From contig NZ_CP023668.1 of NCBI RefSeq assembly GCF_002441935.1, forward strand, positions 773,472-837,471: DNA of 64,000 nucleotides, written 5' to 3'. This DNA is from Mesoplasma lactucae ATCC 49193. GTDB lineage: Bacteria > Bacillota_I > Bacilli_A > Mycoplasmatales > Mycoplasmataceae. This document shows, one piece after another, positions 50,836 through 64,000 of this stretch. The notes below the pieces were generated by a model. The model had not been told where the DNA came from and ran no database searches. It was given only the letters and a program-made list of their open reading frames with translations. Position 1 is the stretch's first letter. The number at the start of each line of letters is the position of its first letter. The translations under genes and the position numbers were made by a program.

Positions 50836-50865
50836 AAATCCTAAGGTGTATTCCTTAGGATTTTT
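50836..50865 (+). terminator. glp operon terminator
   Basis: AAATCCTAAGG and CCTTAGGATTT pair around TGTATT, followed by T. It also lies at the end of the convergent recombinase gene. Confidence 0.9.
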
Positions 50866-50866
50866 G

Positions 50867-51598
50867 TTATTTTAAATACTTTTCTAATTCTTGAAAAACA
50901 TCATTAGAAGTAAAATGCATGTATCTTGCGGTTGTTTCAATTCTAGAGTGTCCCATAACAAGGCTAACTATTTTAATGTTTGCACCATTTCTAATTAAAT
51001 TAGTACAAAATGATCTTCTAAAAGTATGAGGTGTAACCCATTCTGGTCAGTATTTTTTTATCAAGCTATAAATTTTTTTCTTGCTATAAGTTTGGTATAA
51101 AGAAAAATCAATATCCTTTAGTTTTCCTACTAAAGGAATCTCTCTATACTTCATTCCTTTTCCATAGACGATAATTGAATTTTTAGACTTGTTATACTTA
51201 ATTGTTTTTAATTCAGACATTCTTATTCCGCAATAATAGAATATTTTAAACAAATCTTTATTTTCCTTAATTCTTATTTTACTGATTATCTTCTTGAATA
51301 ATTCTTCATCTATTGTTTGAAAGAATGTGTTTTGTGAAGAGGGGATTTTAATTTCTTCAACTTCTTTATATAGCTTCGAATTTGAGAATTTTAAATAACT
51401 TAATATAACATCCTTCTTAAATTGAACTGTTGAAGGCTTATATTTTTCTTGTTGCAATTTGAGATATTTAGATATTCTATAGAAGGTTAAACTTCTATCA
51501 TCTAATTGATTAAAAAGATCTTTTAATACATATCTATAACAATAAATAGTATTCTTTGAATAATTATTGTTATCTAGATATTTTAAAAATTTTTCCAT
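50867..51598 (-). CDS. XerC-like tyrosine recombinase, candidate DNA invertase
   Basis: 243-aa site-specific recombinase of the phage integrase family. A short SAM-like N-terminal core-binding domain (about 1-85) precedes a catalytic domain with the full set R126 (CGIRMSEL), a beta-hairpin Lys in GKGMKYREIP, H191-x-x-R194 (PHTFRRSF), H217 (MGHSRIETT) and nucleophile Y226. It is smaller than XerC/XerD. It sits just outside the left 15-bp inverted repeat of a 3.9-kb segment. In M. pulmonis and M. agalactiae, Xer-like recombinases of this kind invert surface-protein and hsd loci, so a role as local invertase is likely. Confidence 0.9.
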
Positions 51599-51608
51599 AT
51601 TTTAATTT

Positions 51609-51650
51609 CTTTCTATGTAAAAAATAGTTATATAACTACTTTATAGAAAG
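51609..51650. promoter_or_regulatory. dyad-symmetric region between recombinase and invertible segment
   Basis: CTTTCTAT (51609-51616) and ATAGAAAG (51643-51650) enclose a perfect 14-bp palindrome TAGTTATATAACTA (51625-51638). It lies upstream of the recombinase start and could be an operator or contain divergent promoters; a TAAAAT hexamer facing right is at 51673. Confidence 0.45.
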
Positions 51651-51661
51651 ATTTTATTGTT

Positions 51662-52825
51662 CTAAATAATGCTAAAATAATTAAAAAGAGAGGATTTATA
51701 ATACATCTTATTGTTAAAATCCACATTTTTAAAATGTTTATCCGGTTTCCCATCTTTGTTTAAGATACTAATTATTCCCGCATTAGGATTACGATCTTGC
51801 TTTGTTGTTACAGTTCTTGATAATGTAGCATCTTTCTTATTTTTTTCTTTTTTATATTCAGTAAAAAGCATTGGGCTATGTTCATACATTTTATTTCTTG
51901 ATGGGGTTCTATTTGCCAAAGCATCTTCGGCTTCGGCAAATAGTTCTTTATCATTGTAATTGACTCTTAGAACGTCCTTCAATTGTTGTTGAATATGTAG
52001 AGATTTCGAAACGTTTTCTAATCTTTCATTGCTTTCTACAACATCATCGCGACTAATGGAGTTTTTTTTCTTATTTTTTAAAGTATCTGAGAAAATTTCA
52101 TCCGTCACATTAAGAACACTTAAAGCATAAACTCTTTTTCTTCTTTGAGCAGAACCGAATTCAGAAGAATCTATGACAAAAGTTTGTGTTGAGTAGCCTA
52201 AAGAATTTAATTTGTTTAGTCATAACAAATAATCATTAAGATGTTTGCTTGAAAGCATATTGGATACGTTTTCTAAAAGTAAATACTTAGGTTTTTCATT
52301 CATTTCATCCAATTCAGTAAGAATTCTATCAATTTCTCATAGTAAACCTGATCTTGTATTAGAACCCTTCTTCGTGCCTTTGTTACCACCATGTAAAAAA
52401 CCACCGGTTGATAAATCTTGACAGGGGAAAGAATAAGTTAATAAGTCAACGTGTCCTGATTTATTAATTAATTCTTCTCCGGTAATTTCAGTAATACTTC
52501 CCAAATTGTTTGAATTAATAAAAGAATCATATAGTGAACCGATAAAATCAGGACCGTTCTTTTCTAATCTTTCAATAGAACTTGGAGTCTTAGAATTTAA
52601 TGAATGTGTAAAATTTTTAAGGTAGTTAATTTTATCTTCATATTTGATTTTATTATCCTTATTTGTTTTGTTATGAATTGCATTATAAGCAATATTTGCA
52701 TAAGAATCTCATTCGCTAGTAGCCACAATTTTATAGTCAAAATCTTTTATTTTATTTTTAAGAATCTCTAATGCTTTAGCTTGAGCTCCAATTCCTGCAA
52801 ATGTTTCAAATACCTTAATTTTCAT
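51662..52825 (-). CDS. C5-cytosine DNA methyltransferase lacking its C-terminus (OFF form)
   Basis: 387-aa product in the present orientation. Motif I ETFAGIGA (7-14), catalytic PCQ with C135 in SFPCQDLS, ENV (185-187), QRRKRVY and RTVTTKQDRNP (motif IX-like region) are all present. Motif X is absent. After NNKMYY the reading frame passes out of the 15-bp repeat at 51697-51711 and ends with about a dozen unrelated residues at TAG. The lost end, beginning MYYRFLTPRETYLLMGF and containing AGNSIVV, is encoded in frame on + at 55563-55760. Without motif X the enzyme is probably inactive. Inversion would give 437 aa. Confidence 0.88.
51697..51711 (+). repeat. left 15-bp inverted repeat of invertible segment
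   Basis: TATAATACATCTTAT on the + strand. Its inverse complement is at 55561-55575 and no other copy was seen in the window. The repeat lies inside the methyltransferase reading frame. Confidence 0.85.
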
Positions 52826-52837
52826 ATAAATATCCCA

Positions 52838-53530
52838 TTATTTTATTCTTTCTATGTAAATTTCCATACAATTTGGTTTTTTACCCAAACAAGTAATTAA
52901 TTTTTCTAAATCCAAGTAACCAGATTCTTTTTCATGAACCGAAATTTCTTCTTTTGTGTAAGAACATGGTTCGCCTTTTACTGATAAAACTTTGTTAAAA
53001 CAATCTCTATTATCTAAAAAATGACTTGCATAGCACACAAAAATAGAATATGTAATGTATCGCGCATACTTGTTTCCATTCTTGGCATTATCAAAAAGAC
53101 ATTCTTTTTTAAAATCTAACATATAGCTTCAAAATTCTTCGCTAGAATAGCTGAAAATATTTTGGTCTACTATGAAAGAATGATTATTTTCTCCAGTCTT
53201 AGTAATGAAGCCAAAAGAATTTAGAATATCCAAGTATTGCCTTTTTGTCGCCTTGTCTACACTAATTTCTTCTTTTGATAAATAAATATTAATATTAGGC
53301 ATTGTATTAATATGAAAAAGGAATTTTTCAACTTCACCATCATTTTTGCTTTCAACATTAAATAAAACTTCACCATTATTAGGAGAAGTTTTATTATAAG
53401 TTACGAGTATGTTTTTAAAAAAACGTTTTAAGACATCATCTATATGAGTTCCTATTTTTCAAAAACCATATTTTTGTTTTTCTGGAAAGCTATTTAAGCA
53501 TTCTATTGCTACTTCTAAATTATTTTTCAT
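52838..53530 (-). CDS. unknown protein inside the invertible segment
   Basis: 230-aa protein, not recognised. The ATG lies 11 bases inside the end of the DUF262 gene (overlapping ATGAAAAATAA) and its stop is 12 bases before the methyltransferase ATG, so the three genes are one coupled operon. It is mixed alpha/beta with a winged-helix-like stretch (SKEEISVDKATKRQYLDILNS, then FGFITKTG) around 85-110, and Cys-rich towards the end. It could be the sequence-reading or partner subunit of the restriction system; this is inference from position. Confidence 0.7.
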
Positions 53531-55562
53531 TTGGATAATATATCTTATCTATCAATATATCCGCTAGAGACTCGCTACGTTCTTCAATATCTTTAAAAGT
53601 TCAGTCTTTTTCAGTGTTGATTGTTTTTCCATCGCCAAATGGAAAGTCTAAAACCGTTGTTTTAACTAACTTTTTATTAAAGTATTGAGAGCGTTTAGTA
53701 GCAAAGGCGGAGTTTGAAACACTTTTATTAACTTTTTCTTCAAGTCAAATCAAATTACCCAATCTATTGATCATTTTATCTGCTTCAATTGTTATTAATT
53801 TTAAGACATTCTCATCTTTTGGATCTTTACCCTCGTCTTCTGCTTCAGCAATTGTATATGTCTTTTGGTTTCTAAATTCTTGTGGCCAAATATGCTCAAT
53901 ATTTCCTTTTTCAGTAGGCATAATTGGTGCTTTTCCAGTTATTCTCTTACTTCCGTTTAAAATAAAGAATTCAATTCTTTTGACGATAATTTCTTGATTT
54001 GAACCTTTGATTTCATTATTTTTAAGAGAATCTCTAAACAATTCTTTATTAGGCATGTATTGTCTTGTGCTTTCGGCTTGGGTATCAATTCAATCATCGA
54101 TTATTGATGGTAACTGTTCTCTTTTTTCATTGATATTCATTTCTTTTGTATGTTCATCAATGTATCTTCTAAGAGCAATTCTAGCATTGTCCAATGTTTG
54201 TCCATCGCCACCTCGTTGCACTTTACCTATAATTCATTTTTCTATGTTCAAACATGCTTCACCAAATTTTGAATCATAATTATTGTCTTCGAAAAAATGA
54301 GATCTATTTCAATTGTAATTTTCTTGCGCAAAGTCGTGTGGTTCATATTTAAAATAAACATCAATTAAATAATAAAGTATCGGTAGAAGAGAATGTTTTT
54401 CTTGGAAAACTCAAAGGTGCGGTGAATAATAGTACAAGAAATTATTCATATCCTTTTCATAATCATGAGTAAGGATACTTGCATAAATATCTAAATATTT
54501 ACTAATGTTAGCAATAAATTTTTCATATTCATCAAAAGTTAAATTGTTCTCATTTGCAAAAATTTTGTCAAAAGCAGACAATAATGCTCTTGGATTACCA
54601 CCAATATTTTCTGGTTCGGGTGATTTATAGACAAGCAAACTTCTCATAAATTCACTTTCTTTATCTTCGTTTCCCTTTAAATTTTGTGTTGTAAAACGAT
54701 TATTAAAATCGATTCTACTTCTAAAAATTAAATCGATGTCACTTTCTTTATCAATTAAAATAGAAGGCTTTATTTTTAAGAAAATGCTATTTTTAATTAA
54801 ATCTAATAAACTTAATGGTTCACCTTTTGAGTTTAAATTTTGAAAAATTTGCATTTCTTCAATCATATCCAATGAAAATTCAACAAGGGCTACTTGATAG
54901 TATGAATTAAAGTTTAAAAACAATTTTTCAATAGCATTAACTTTTTCTTTTGAAGTTTCTTCTGTAAAAAAATTGCTTAAATAATTGTTTAAATTTTCAA
55001 CAATTCTATGATAATTTTTTATAACATTTGTGTCAGCATAAGATGATTTGGTTTTTCCGTTAACATCTTTTTTATTAAGCATAGTTTCAATGTTGTCATC
55101 TTTGATGTCATCACTCAAAATAAAGCTTAGTGCCTTTTGTTCTAATTCAATCTTAGAACCGTTGATAAGCCTATCTTCTAATTTTATAGTTGGATTTATA
55201 AAAACTTTTTGTAGTGGAAGAGGAAGTTCTTTACCTTTAACTCCAAGTTCATTAGTTAAAACATCAAACACTGCTTTATATATTAATAGAATAGTAGTGA
55301 TTCTTTGTTGTCCATCAATTAGTTTTATGACTTCTTGTCCATCAATATTTTGCCTTGCTATGGCAAATGAACCAAAATACTGATATGGATTATTATCATT
55401 TGAATTTTCAATTATTTCTCCAATTAGATCGTCTATATTGTTTTCCTTTCAAGAATAATTTCTTTGATAAATAGGAATAAAAAATGGTAATTTGTTTTGA
55501 TTAATCAAATCGTTCACTGTATTAACATTAGTAACTATAGGGTTTTTTGTTTTGTTTTCCAT
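53520..55562 (-). CDS. GmrSD-like DUF262/DUF1524 restriction protein
   Basis: 680-aa fusion with the layout of GmrSD-type (type IV, modification-dependent) restriction enzymes. The N-terminal DUF262 (ParB/Srx-like NTPase) has YQRNYSWKENNIDDLIGEI and the signature DGQQR (D83-R87) in KLIDGQQRITT. The C-terminal DUF1524 carries an HNH-like nuclease motif IEHIWPQ (H557) and later asparagines (NRLGNLIWLE). The start ATG overlaps the right inverted repeat, whose TATAAT lies seven bases before it. No Shine-Dalgarno is visible, so a leaderless transcript is possible. Related fusions also occur as partners in phosphorothioate and BREX-type defence. Confidence 0.85.
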
Positions 55563-55575
55563 AAGATGTATTATA
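55561..55575 (-). repeat. right 15-bp inverted repeat of invertible segment
   Basis: ATAAGATGTATTATA on +, the inverse complement of the left repeat at 51697-51711. It spans the start codon of the DUF262 gene on the minus strand and the codons for KMYY of the orphan methyltransferase end on +. Confidence 0.85.
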
Positions 55576-55760
55576 GATTCTTAACCCCAAGAGAAACCTA
55601 TTTATTAATGGGTTTTAGCGATGAAGATTTTAATAGAGTAAATGATACAAAATTAATTAAAAAAGAAATAGCTTATAGACAGGCGGGAAATTCAATTGTT
55701 GTTAATGTGTTAGTCTCCCTATTTTATTACATATATAAAATTGAAAAAGAAAGTCACTAG
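55563..55760 (+). pseudogene. orphan C-terminal exon of the C5-cytosine methyltransferase
   Basis: Reads HKMYYRFLTPRETYLLMGF, then about 25 residues, then YRQAGNSIVVNVLVSLF and a basic end, stopping at TAG 55758-55760. This is the motif IX-X end of a C5 methyltransferase with the GNS signature. It has no credible start or ribosome binding site in place. The frame across ATAAGATGTATTATA is the same as in the truncated methyltransferase, so inversion restores a 437-aa enzyme. It should be treated as the silent half of a switchable gene, not a decayed gene. Confidence 0.85.
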
Positions 55761-55780
55761 TTTATAGTGACTTTTTGCGT
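55752..55780 (+). terminator. Rho-independent terminator after the methyltransferase end
   Basis: AGTCACTA and TAGTGACT pair around GTTTA and are followed by TTTT. It lies at the stop codon of the orphan exon, where the restored methyltransferase gene would end. Confidence 0.75.
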
Positions 55781-55870: not shown

Positions 55871-57343
55871 ATGCCAAATAATTCAGAAAACGAAATAAAA
55901 AAGTTAGGGAAGGTATATACACCACCTTATATAATTGCTCGTATATTAGATGATTCTGGGTACAAAGGAAACAATGTTTTACAAAAACATGTTGTTGACA
56001 ATAGTGCTGGTGATGGTGAATTTCTGCTTGAGTTCATTAGAAGATATAAAAAAGCTTTTTTTAAAGGAAAAGATAAAAACAATATTCAAATTCAAAAGGA
56101 ATTTGCACTGGAGATTGAAACATATGTTCATGGTATTGAAATTAATCCTGATTCAATTGTAATAATCAAAGACCGAATCAAAAAAATGTTTATTAATGAA
56201 TTTTATTTTGAAATAGTTCCAGAAATAGACATTAAGCAAAATGATACTTTATTTGAAAAATCATTGGATGAAAAAATGGACTATGTTTTTGGTAATCCTC
56301 CTTATGTAAGAAGAAAAAATCTTTCTGACGACGATGCTTATATTGCTAAAGAAAATAATATGTCTGGTATGGTCGACCTTTACCTTTTATTCTTCATAAA
56401 AGGTAAAAAAATGTTAAAACCCAACGGAGTATTAGGATATATTACCCCAAACTCTTATTTCTATACTCAAAGTGGAGAAAGATTAAGACAAATCATTTTA
56501 ACAGAGACAACTCTTTTAGAAATAATTGACATGGGTCATAATAACCCTTTTAAAAACGCTGATACGTATACAGCAATTACTATTTTTAAAAATACTCCTA
56601 TGGGTAAAAAAATTAAATTAAAATATTCTGACGATTTTGACAAAAAATCTGAGAAGATTTCGATTTCTCAAGAAGATATTGAAAAATTAACAAAATATTT
56701 TTATTTTTCAAATGATAATAATGACAATTTTCTAGATATTGTTACTTATGAAAACGAAGATAATTCAGAAGAAATTAAGGTAAAAAATGGTGCAGCTTCC
56801 AATGCAGACTGATTTTTTTATTTTGATGATGCCAAAGGGGTTTACACGCAAAGAGCATACAAAGCATCAACTGCTAAATTTACAAGAGCTTATTTTCCAT
56901 ATGATGACAATGGGGATGTAGTTAAACTAAATGACATTAAAGAATATAATCATGATTTTTTTGAAAAATTAAAAATAGATAGACCGAATCTTGAAAATAG
57001 ATCTCTTCAAAAAAGAAACTGATATGAGTTTGCAAGATCGCAGGGAATAAAAGACTTCGTTGATACAAAAGTATTCACATTGGCGATAAATAATTTAATA
57101 AAAGATAAAAATGATTTAAAAATGAAAATTTTACCTAAAAAAACGGTTGTTTATTCAGGTTTTTATATACAAAATAAGTCAAAAACGTTTTTAAATAATA
57201 TAATGAAATTGTTACAAACTGACGATTTTTCTGAATATGTTAAAAAATTAGGAAAACACAAAAGCGGAGGGTATTATACATATTCTTCTGTAGACGTAGC
57301 TAGATTTATAAATTACAAATTAAGAGAGGGAAAAAATGAGTAA
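55871..57343 (+). CDS. type II N6-adenine DNA methyltransferase (Eco57I/TaqI class)
   Basis: 490-aa gamma-class adenine methylase. It starts LGKVYTPPYIIARILDD (motif X-like), then NSAGDGEF at 44-51 (motif I) and the catalytic GNPPYVRR with N142-Y145. An Eco57I-type region GYITPNSYFYTQSGERLR follows, and the C-terminal half is a target-recognition domain. AAGGAAG precedes the ATG. The stop overlaps the nuclease gene by 8 bases. This pairs it with that nuclease as an R-M system, independent of the invertible segment's orientation. Confidence 0.88.
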
Positions 57344-58133
57344 GATTGATGGAGAAATGATTGTAGAAATCATTAATAGTTATGAAAGAGTTAATAATTT
57401 ATATCAAGAAGGAAAAGATGGAAGCCGTTCAGCCTCTAAAATGGATGAACTACATGCAAAAATCGCTAGTGATCTTAATGACAAAATTAATGCAAGTCCT
57501 GAACTTAAAGGTAAATATCGAACTGATTCTAAAAAGAATAATAAAAACGAAATAAAAGCTGAAGGAGCTATATATTCTAAAAAATTAGATATAGCTATTC
57601 TTGATGTAAGAACTAAGCAACAAGATATAGTTGGTGCAATTGAAGTTAAAGCTCCCACTGCTTCTTTTGCTCAAAATAAAGTAAATTATTTTGAGCAAGG
57701 AATGGGAGAATGCGTTAACTTAAAGCTTAGCAAAAAGAAATATTATGATGTGTATATTTATTTAGACAAGATACCTAATTTTAAAGGTAGTCCTAAAATG
57801 TTGAAATCTGTCGAAGACCTTGATCAAAGTACTTTTGATTGATTAAGAAAAAGAAACAACATTGGAGTCATGAGTAAGGAAGACCTACCTTACGTACCTA
57901 ATTCAACATTAATAATGTTATTAAAAAGTCCTAATTTGCCAAATGATATAACAAAAGAAGGGTATTATAGTTTTTTAACAGAAAATCTCAGCCCTAAAAA
58001 GAAGAATCCCAATTCTCTATATGCTGATGATGCTTTTGATAATCTTTTTAAGACACGAAACCTTTTCTTTAATGATTATGAGGAATTCTTAAATGAAATT
58101 ATTGAAGATTTAAAAGAAAATGAGAGAAGATAA
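57336..58133 (+). CDS. PD-(D/E)XK restriction endonuclease candidate
   Basis: 265-aa protein beginning 8 bases before the end of the methylase gene. A canonical PD-(D/E)XK core is visible: D85 in KKLDIAILDVR and E103-V-K105 in GAIEVKAPTASF, separated by about 18 residues. The N-terminal half is helical and the C-terminal half has no recognised motif. It is most simply the cognate endonuclease of the N6 methylase. The ribosome binding site GAGAGGG lies within the methylase end. One TGA Trp occurs at 57840. Confidence 0.8.
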
Positions 58134-58136
58134 AAA

Positions 58137-60130
58137 ATGGAAATTTATTTAGACAATTTATTAAATGAAGAAATCGAATTTTTAGATAAAGAACTTGATA
58201 TAAATAAAAAAAAGGACTTTTTTGATTGTTTGGAAGCGCGCAAAATGATTTTTAATAATCTTTATAGTGATGATTCCTTAATCGGATTTGAATTAAGTTC
58301 TTATATTAAAAAAACATTTACCAAGAATGGCAATTATTTAAATTACTTTGATTTAGTAACCTTAGATCGTGATAACGAAACAGCACATTTAATTATTTTT
58401 TGTAATTCAGAAGATGATTTAAACCTAAAAAATCTAGGTTGAAAGATACAAAATGCTAATGACTTGATTAATAATTCATTATCTAAAAAAGACGAGTATA
58501 CAGGAAATCAAAAAATTGCGCGTGTTGCTGAAGATAATGTAGAGTTAGCTAACATCTTACAAGAAATAAAACGATTTGAAGACATAAAAATCGATATCGT
58601 TTTATTTGATTTTGCAAAGAAAAATAATTCTAATAAAATTGAATCTTTTATTGAAAAAGAATCAAATAATTGTAGTACAGATCTTAATTTACTAACAAAT
58701 AAAAGTTACAAAGTAAAAATGAGCGATTCATTTTTAAATGAAGGAAAACAAAATAAAAAGATGACTCTTTCTTATCTTGATGATAATAAAAATGCACAAG
58801 AAGATTATGCTATTAATGGTAACTTTATTAAAAATGGTAATAACTATGTGTTTTCTATCCAAGCCTATAGCTTATATAAAGCTTACAAAGAATATGGTGA
58901 AGAATTATTTGATAGAAACGTAAGATATTTTATAAAGAGCACCACAGGAATTAGTGGTCAAGTGAATAAATCTATCTTAAATACATTAGAAAATGAGCCA
59001 CAAGATTTCTGAACTCTTAATAATGGGATTGTAATTATCGGAGATGTCGCCGAAGATGGAATTAATCAAATTAATAAAACTATTACTTTTAATAATTTAG
59101 ATATAGTTAACGGAGCTCAAACCGTCACTAATATATATGAGTTTGCTAAAAAAAAAGTGAAAAGAAAGCAAACGAACTTAAATCCGTTTATATAATCGCC
59201 AAAGTAATTGACATAAAAGATTCTACTATTGAAGAAGAAAAAAACTTAGTCGACGAAATTGTAAAAGCTGCTAATAGTCAAAAACCTATAAAAGAACGCG
59301 ATTTAGTCTCTAATAATCCTGAAATGAAAGAATTACAAGACGTTTTTGTTCAAAATAAAACTATACTTGAAATTAAAAGAGGGGAAAGAAGATCAGATAT
59401 AGAAAATCGAATAAAAAAAGTTTATCCGGATTTCAAAGGCAAACCAAAAAATGTAAAAAATGATGCTTTAGGTCAAGATATATTATCCCTATTTTATTTA
59501 AAACCTTTTGAAGCACTTCAAAAACTAGGAAAATTATTCAACAAAGATTTATATGACAAAATATTCAACAATACATATTTAATTCCACAAGATTATTTTT
59601 ATATCTGAGACTTTAATCAATGAATGAATGAAAAGATTAATGAGTTGAGAGAAGACTTAATAGTGGGTCAAGAACTTAATTTAGAAGATAATAAAAAAAC
59701 TTCTAATTCAGCACTGTTTGATCAGACTAGACGTTGAGTAATTTCTACCTTATGATTGTTACTTTGATATAACAAAGATGTAAAAGATAAATTAGATGTC
59801 AAATTCCCTTCGGTTGTTGAAATTGAAGAGTTATTAGATAATAAAAATGACCAAACTTTTTTAATGAAAGAAACAGAAATGCTTCATCCTGTAAATCTAA
59901 CATCTGATTTAAAAAAAGCTATTATAAGATTTATTGACCTTTGTCATAAAAATATTGTTACTGTTTATAATAAAGCCAAAAACAAAGACAATAAAAGTGC
60001 CGGATTGGCTGTAACTACTTTCTCATTCAGAAGAAGTGAATTCATGTCTTTCCTAAAAGAATTGCTATTTGATTCTGATCGTTTAACAGATCCTCTACAA
60101 GAAATCGTGGGCAGTTTTCTAGAAGACTAA
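58137..60130 (+). pseudogene. AIPR-family (abortive infection phage resistance) gene interrupted by a frameshift at A9
   Basis: The first frame (58137-59195, 352 aa) carries the AIPR core: FDRNVRYFIKSTTGISGQVN, DFWTLNNGIVII and NLDIVNGAQTVTNIYE. It then runs into TAA after an A9 tract at 59148-59156. The rest, KSEKKANELKSVYIIAKVID and on to 60130, is open in the -1 frame and continues the protein, with the expected AANSQKPIKERDLVSN segment. One extra A would restore a protein of about 664 aa. The tract could be a slipped-strand phase switch, a programmed -1 slip site, or a sequencing error. AIPR proteins commonly accompany type II R-M genes. Confidence 0.85.
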
Positions 60131-62394: not shown

Positions 62395-62587
62395 ATATCT
62401 GTTTTCCTTTCTTATTTAAATTAGATTTACTAAAAACAATTAACCATATTAAAAAATATCAATTTGGTTAATTAGGTTTTACCACTTATTAAAAAGATAA
62501 GATATAAAATCCAAGGTTAAAAAAATAGTTCATTTTGAAACAATGAACTATTTGAGAGGATATAAGAAAAGAAGAAATTAGACCACA
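62395..62587. other. intergenic region between degenerate Doc gene and the repeat
   Basis: AT-rich. It holds the ribosome binding site of the minus-strand gene, the leftward terminator-like hairpin at 62524-62553, and AATTAACCATATT with an inverse GGTTAATT about 25 bases on. No ORF with a ribosome binding site seen. Confidence 0.4.
62524..62553 (-). terminator. hairpin with minus-strand T run
   Basis: AAATAGTTCATT and AATGAACTATTT pair around TTGAAAC. On the minus strand the hairpin ends in a T run, so it would terminate a leftward RNA coming from the peptide-leader region at 62.6-62.9 kb, where no minus-strand gene is seen. An antisense RNA is possible. Confidence 0.5.
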
Positions 62588-62671
62588 TCCTCTGAACTTT
62601 ATCTAATAAAGAATAAGAGAAAAATTGAAAAAAATCCCGAATTATTTTAAATTTCTTTTTTGTTTTTTCTT
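62588..62671 (+). repeat. 84-bp direct repeat, copy 1
   Basis: The segment starting TCCTCTGAACTTTATC is repeated at 63917-64000, where the window ends, so the true repeat may be longer. It contains CTTTAT-CTA-ATAAAG and a long A/T-rich end. Non-coding. Confidence 0.9.
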
Positions 62672-63832: not shown

Positions 63833-63916
63833 TGTTCTTTTCCTTTCATTTTATTGTTTTAATAATATTAATACAAAAATTATTTGTTGTTAGAAAAGAG
63901 GCTAAATTTAATCGTT

Positions 63917-64000
63917 TCCTCTGAACTTTATCTAATAAAGAATAAGAGAAAAATTGAAAAAAATCCCGAATTATTTTAAATTTCTTTTTTGTTTTTTCTT
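63917..64000 (+). repeat. 84-bp direct repeat, copy 2 (cut by window end)
   Basis: Matches 62588-62671 base for base to the last base of the window. It lies upstream of the Doc gene on its 5' side, in the same orientation as copy 1. Confidence 0.9.

Follow-up and report, generated by a model that had tools for sequence, protein, structure and literature searches.

In a 64,000-nucleotide stretch of the Mesoplasma lactucae genome (hereafter the window, whose numbering we use), a gene for a C5 cytosine methyltransferase (MTase) lies in two pieces on opposite strands beside an intact tyrosine recombinase gene, raising the question of whether the MTase is broken, is permanently divided, or can be put back together by the cell. 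The answer we favor, with a probability of roughly 0.72, is the last: the locus is a site-specific inversion switch in which the recombinase flips a 3.9-kb segment and rejoins the MTase, turning methylation on. In this scheme the tyrosine recombinase would act on two 15-bp arms and invert the segment between them, the flip would occur in nature, and the rejoined enzyme of 437 amino acids (aa) would methylate DNA; the assembled orientation would then be OFF, with no functional MTase. The genes of the locus, translated with genetic code 4, all read open, and its features are as follows.

50836..50863, both strands: terminator-like hairpin 3' of the recombinase gene, left edge of the module (pattern match)
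50867..51598, minus strand: intact tyrosine recombinase, 243 aa (Pfam PF00589, E 5e-18; motifs)
51599..51696, plus strand: left flank, which would lie upstream of the GmrSD-like gene if the segment were inverted; AGAGAGGA and TGCTAAAAT seen by eye
51662..52825, minus strand: truncated N-terminal part of the C5 MTase, 387 aa (PF00145 positions 11-259 of 324)
51697..51711, plus strand: left putative recombination-site arm, TATAA-TACATC-TTAT (exact repeat)
52838..53530, minus strand: partner protein, 230 aa, no family assigned; homologues adjoin GmrSD in relatives
53520..55562, minus strand: intact GmrSD-like nuclease (DUF262 and DUF1524), 680 aa (PF03235 and PF07510)
55561..55575, minus strand: right putative recombination-site arm (exact repeat)
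55563..55760, plus strand: C-terminal stub of the MTase, motifs IX and X, LTPRE...GNS (PF00145 positions 274-322)
55750..55774, minus strand by scan and plus strand by eye (five T after the stem): terminator-like hairpin 3' of the stub, right edge of the module

We consider the split itself first. The earlier note, an initial reading of this DNA, had described a 15-bp inverted repeat at 51697-51711 and 55561-55575 that bounds 3.9 kb (3,879 bp by our count) and divides the MTase, with the N-terminal part inside on the minus strand and the motif-X end outside on the plus strand. Both observations hold: the arms are exact reverse complements, the 837,471-bp genome has no exact copies of the 15-mer TATAATACATCTTAT beyond these two inverted arms, and the two pieces cover separate parts of PF00145 (11-259 versus 274-322). 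The count of 375 N-terminal codons inside the segment needs a small correction, since the N part is on the minus strand as described but the tetrapeptide KMYY, read from the arm, occupies residues 373-376 of 387, after which the frame runs through 11 foreign residues to a stop. The stub, which lies outside the invertible segment, opens within the right arm and continues from KMYY as a 65-codon C-terminal part on the plus strand, ending in a stop at 55758-55760. When we reverse the segment in silico, the pieces join in frame into a single MTase of 437 aa, bearing out the claim that both repeats are read in the same frame. FAGIG, PCQDLS, ENV and QRRKR are found in the N part and LTPRE and GNS in the stub; by what we take to be the usual numbering, the N part carries motifs I to VIII and the target-recognition region, and the stub motifs IX and X. 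The catalytic PCQ/ENV part and the motif X part are both present, on two separate pieces, and the cut falls just before LTPRE, leaving the catalytic and target-recognition regions on one side and motifs IX and X on the other. The closest solved chains, 4dkj and 8c56, which we take to be the CpG-specific M.MpeI, match an unsplit relative (P0005) over almost its entire length.

What might act on these arms? The motifs GIR.SEL, HTFRR and GHS..TT.RY, which we assume to be catalytic, are all present in the M. lactucae recombinase, whose start codon lies 98 bp from the left arm. Relatives of this protein (E <= 1e-10) occur in 63 of the 320 genomes of the order, and we examined the loci of the best 20 of at least 80 recombinase matches, leaving out the two switch loci (the second is introduced below). 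In 11 of these 20 kin loci the recombinase has hsdS-like genes beside it, with Pfam Methylase_S in 10 of those 11 (one fragment from L090 was tested for it, with no match). An inverted repeat that includes ATAA-N6-TTAT is present in nine of the 11 hsdS-linked loci (L074, L075, L077, L081, L085, L086, L090, L092 and L093; that of L090 does not span the recombinase), while L087 has a variant of the pattern and L091 none. The other nine kin loci have no such repeat, and the pattern is found in 0.7% of random 29-bp stretches drawn from these loci. The MTase arms follow the same rule with a different 6-bp spacer. In a tree of 26 rows, rooted at the midpoint, the two MTase-linked recombinases form one clade (100/100), which nests with moderate support (90/85) in a wider group with hsdS-linked ones. 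Separately, G198, part of the hsdS comparison set, has a damaged MTase match 6 kb from its recombinase.

The genus comparison consists of two genomes, M. lactucae and a second species (G001) whose MTase differs at 1 of 406 residues from P0002 (source name Mesoplasma whartonense); M. whartonense is described as an ant symbiont in a passage of PMC12239587, a paper that takes M. lactucae as a reference. In this second species an orthologous recombinase, 63% identical, lies beside an MTase that is split likewise: the N part, 50% identical to that of M. lactucae, is cut at the same place, and the stub, 61% identical, has an intact open frame on the opposite strand. An exact 28-bp inverted repeat (L043, 9764-9791 and 11124-11151) bounds a segment of 1,388 bp that holds the MTase only, as against 3,879 bp in M. 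lactucae, and in both species both arms lie in the MTase frame. The flanks differ, with a threonyl-tRNA synthetase-like gene and a lipoprotein-like gene (by eye) in G001 versus glycerol genes in M. lactucae. GlpF, the sole other gene compared, is 62% identical between the two genomes, so the switch module has diverged about as much. The site pattern TATAATRCATCTTAT is present in 3 of the 320 genomes of the order and is paired and inverted only in these two, with one forward and one reverse copy in each and a single copy in G156; its backwards-read control gives 0 matches over the same 320 genomes. Within each genome the 6-bp spacers of both arms agree, being TACATC in M. lactucae versus TGCATC in G001. 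Arms alike within a genome and unlike between genomes form the pattern that ongoing exchange between the arms would give. As a separate matter, a further recombinase of G001 is flanked by two hsdS genes and accompanied by a 29-bp inverted repeat (L074, 6063-8962), an arrangement like an invertible Type I locus.

These data bear on one alternative, that an old inversion broke the MTase and the locus has been decaying since. Our having seen only the split form is what such a relic would produce, but we think it very improbable, given that the recombinase, N part and stub frames are all intact in two species that differ at half of their MTase residues, and that the arms are identical within and not between genomes. 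The 62 stub codons scored contain zero stops, where about 4.2 are expected in random codons of the same composition (P of none 0.013). The ratio of nonsynonymous to synonymous divergence (pN/pS) between the two species, whose synonymous sites are near saturation, is well below 1 in each part: 0.42 for the stub (bootstrap range 0.27-0.59), 0.46 for the N part and 0.35 for the recombinase. On these codon statistics the stub is under purifying selection. The earlier note would have counted as refutation a lack of reads or related genomes in the opposite orientation, or related genomes with the same split and decayed ends; in the assemblies and protein clusters traced we do see the same split and no opposite orientation, yet the ends are intact and not decayed.

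Several results weigh against a switch. By length alone the M. lactucae repeat is not above chance: the window contains 8 exact inverted repeats of at least 15 bp with 200-10,000 bp between the arms, and 20 dinucleotide shuffles give 6.65 on average (range 3-12). With exact inverted repeats of 15-18 bp so frequent in this DNA, we dropped repeat length as evidence; what exceeds chance, and carries the case for the switch, is the position of the arms and their conservation in G001. A promoter scan of the region yields matches that do not exceed those in shuffled sequence. The adjacency of a recombinase and an MTase also proves nothing by itself, because in f7 genomes several recombinases are found near unsplit C5 MTases with no site of this geometry. 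The idea that recombinases paired with C5 MTases make up a broader class of switches was considered, by comparing the listed, stronger MTase matches by hand with 80 recombinase matches, and rejected. Eight loci with both within 10 kb were fetched (two in G130 and one each in G126, G127, G075, G096, G175 and G078; f7 genomes), and whenever the two MTase parts were both matched in one of them, they were neighbours on the same strand. In five of the eight (L124, L125, L128, L129 and L130) one arm of an exact 15-17-bp inverted repeat falls within the MTase, and at one G130 locus (L123, 3411-7999) the arms of a 35-bp inverted repeat lie on either side of an unsplit C5 MTase and the recombinase. None of the repeats in these loci has the ATAA-N6-TTAT form or splits the MTase, and we read them as chance or other repeats; the G096 and G175 loci look like prophages by gene content (by eye).

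The most direct difficulty is that the rejoined orientation was not found in any assembly or protein cluster traced. The N-part representatives of clusters P0001, P0002 (13 member sequences) and P0003 (5) all end at the arm, and no full-length version of these three lineages appears among the 120 of 4,054 matches listed, a list from which the N part of M. lactucae itself is also missing. The stubs are predicted as separate proteins in P0122 (8 contigs), P0123 (3, including M. lactucae) and P0127 (2), and P0122 begins with residues encoded within the segment, which is what the split orientation gives. This survey rests on cluster representatives, and several contigs may be one strain. An all-split result is unexpected if switching is frequent; it fits a population that is mostly OFF, and it fits a two-piece enzyme.

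In a two-piece enzyme the split would be fixed, and the N part and a stub of 62-75 aa would be made separately and assemble into an active C5 MTase. Natural two-subunit C5 MTases exist, such as AquI and EcoHK31I, and NCBIfam has a model for an N-terminal subunit. That every traced lineage is split is as this idea predicts, both MTase pieces are intact and under constraint, and the right arm contains an in-frame ATG in both M. lactucae and G001, with a further one inside the G001 segment. We nonetheless judge it unlikely. The N part matches the two-subunit model (NF045953) at 54.6 bits, below the curated cut-off of 93, and by eye no Shine-Dalgarno sequence precedes the stub in either species. 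A two-piece enzyme also leaves unexplained the upkeep of a constrained recombinase and of matched arms. The strongest argument against a fixed split is that in each genome the recombinase has stayed intact and has a single exact site pair, the one at the MTase.

If the locus is a switch, does inversion control more than the MTase? The M. lactucae segment also encodes the GmrSD-like nuclease, whose PF03235 and PF07510 domains carry DGQQR, which we take to be a GmrSD motif, and EHIWP. The last two bases of the right arm, at its inner edge, are part of the GmrSD ATG, and because the start codon sits on the arm edge, any flip exchanges the sequence upstream of it beyond the 15-bp site. GmrSD and the partner would, in the OFF orientation, be preceded by a minus-strand terminator and an antisense stretch, and GmrSD would be silent. 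In the flipped, ON orientation the two genes would come to lie downstream of the recombinase-side flank (51599-51696), which holds the sole sequence resembling a Shine-Dalgarno element seen by eye, AGAGAGGA, about 16 nt before the would-be GmrSD ATG, as well as TGCTAAAAT, resembling by eye an extended -10 element with a presumed promoter function. Transcription leaving the truncated MTase gene in the OFF orientation would reach the recombinase gene after 63 bp without passing a predicted terminator, and recombinase output may therefore be higher in OFF cells. From these elements one can draw a broader proposal, in which a single inversion switches both arms of a restriction-modification system, completing the C5 MTase and placing GmrSD and its partner under a promoter, with an OFF transcript that ends in the recombinase and a switch that is self-limiting and mostly OFF. 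We put this forward tentatively and consider it more apt to fail than to hold. The arm itself has TATAAT seven bases before the GmrSD ATG, a spacing that would suit leaderless initiation whichever way the segment lies, and GmrSD may thus not be silent in the split orientation.

The emphasis could also be reversed, such that the chief effect of inversion is to give GmrSD and its partner a different upstream sequence and the change to the MTase is secondary. The start codon on the arm edge, with the change of upstream sequence that any inversion must bring, speaks for this, but the second species has the same anatomy with the MTase alone and no GmrSD match at E 0.001, and we give the idea very little credence. 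By the same comparison, the earlier note's picture of a switch that splits a C5 MTase together with a GmrSD-like gene survives in its first half: a recombinase-linked repeat splits the MTase in the second species as well, with intact ends, but GmrSD is in the segment only in M. lactucae. Its further suggestion of one operon running on into the N6 methylase, nuclease and AIPR genes is uncertain, because the hairpin at 55750-55774 intervenes (on the minus strand only by scan, on the plus strand by eye).

Unsplit relatives suggest where the putative inversion switch came from. The N-part profile matches 147 of the 320 genomes of the order at E <= 1e-20, and within the family we fetched loci from 12 of the 21 genomes with strong N-part matches (E < 1e-80), chosen for also having a GmrSD match. 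In all 12 the N and C parts are neighbours on a single strand, with a GmrSD match, complete or partial, 3' of the MTase on that strand. In nine the MTase is preceded by a frame of 931-1,016 aa (by eye); two of these frames were tested and are PLD-ResIII helicases. When the two MTase pieces of each species, M. lactucae and G001, are compared with 15 full-length relatives picked from the matches, they align to complementary ends of all 15. Since the MTase, GmrSD and partner of relatives form an unswitched cluster, often with a helicase-sized gene, the probable source of the module is a restriction-modification-like system that an inversion recombinase of the hsdS type has captured. The adjacency of the two genes in relatives is also why GmrSD more likely acts with its MTase than against it, an inference made even though a GmrSD that acted on 5-methylcytosine (m5C) DNA and an active C5 MTase would together do harm. 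The partner protein has no Pfam or NCBIfam match and a weak, winged-helix-like predicted model; tblastn finds it in five of the 12 family loci, with further candidates by position and alignment, and the GmrSD proteins of G057 and G058 include a fused, partner-like W.IGT start (by eye).

A few observations stand beside these. A cluster of PLD-ResIII helicase, C5 MTase, GmrSD and a small W..(K/G)T protein recurs in mollicutes (for example L131, 6840-14380) and is perhaps an unnamed defence system. G001 has a helicase of the PLD-ResIII kind away from its switch locus (L268, 3245-10270), with two divergent C5 MTase-like frames 1.7 kb beyond it. Elsewhere in the window, an AIPR/AbiU-like gene (58137-60130) shifts frame within a run of nine A (59148-59156), the window's sole A or T homopolymer of at least nine, which could be a slippage switch or a sequencing error; a 265-aa protein downstream of an Eco57I-like methylase (57336-58133) has no family match above threshold and is a possible endonuclease; and a 97-nt direct repeat, 94% identical (62575-62671 and 63904-64000), lies near Fic-like genes at the window end.

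How does this locus compare with known systems? The enzyme differs from mollicute C5 MTases of the M.MpeI type in being cut just before LTPRE. In lactobacillus BREX, a recombinase-driven inversion of pglX reportedly switches a defence methyltransferase, but pglX encodes an adenine methyltransferase of the BREX cluster; here no protein of the locus exceeds an NCBIfam cut-off for BREX, and the neighbouring N6 methylase is a weak PglX match. By its predicted domains the nuclease resembles the GmrSD family including BrxU, sharing both Pfam domains and an EHxxP motif (carried by DUF1524 according to a passage of PMC12707154, which also states that BrxU acts on m5C DNA in vitro); unlike described GmrSD and BrxU proteins, it is clustered with a C5 MTase and a partner and has its start codon at a recombination arm. 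If GmrSD is co-switched, one recombination event would solve an old problem, how to switch a nuclease jointly with the methylase that protects against it. The closest likeness is to invertible hsdS loci. In pneumococcus, PsrA inverts DNA between hsdS repeats in vitro, one pair being 15 bp (as given in part of PMC7096588), and the hsd locus of Mycoplasma pulmonis is an invertible Type I locus, as cited in a passage of PMC11062135. With these (cod/PsrA and M. pulmonis hsd) our locus shares an Xer-like tyrosine recombinase beside a restriction-modification gene and short inverted repeats inside coding sequence, and with mollicute hsdS loci it shares a related recombinase and the ATAA-N6-TTAT geometry, a rule that offers a way to find more such switches in mollicutes. 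It differs in that the target is a C5 MTase (PF00145) and not Methylase_S and that there is no alternative specificity cassette; the predicted outcome is on or off, by cutting the catalytic fold, and not a change of specificity. Recombinase-switched restriction-modification is already known: where known hsdS switching changes specificity, cutting the C5 MTase fold between the target-recognition region and motif IX would make an all-or-none methylation switch, sitting in some of the smallest bacterial genomes.

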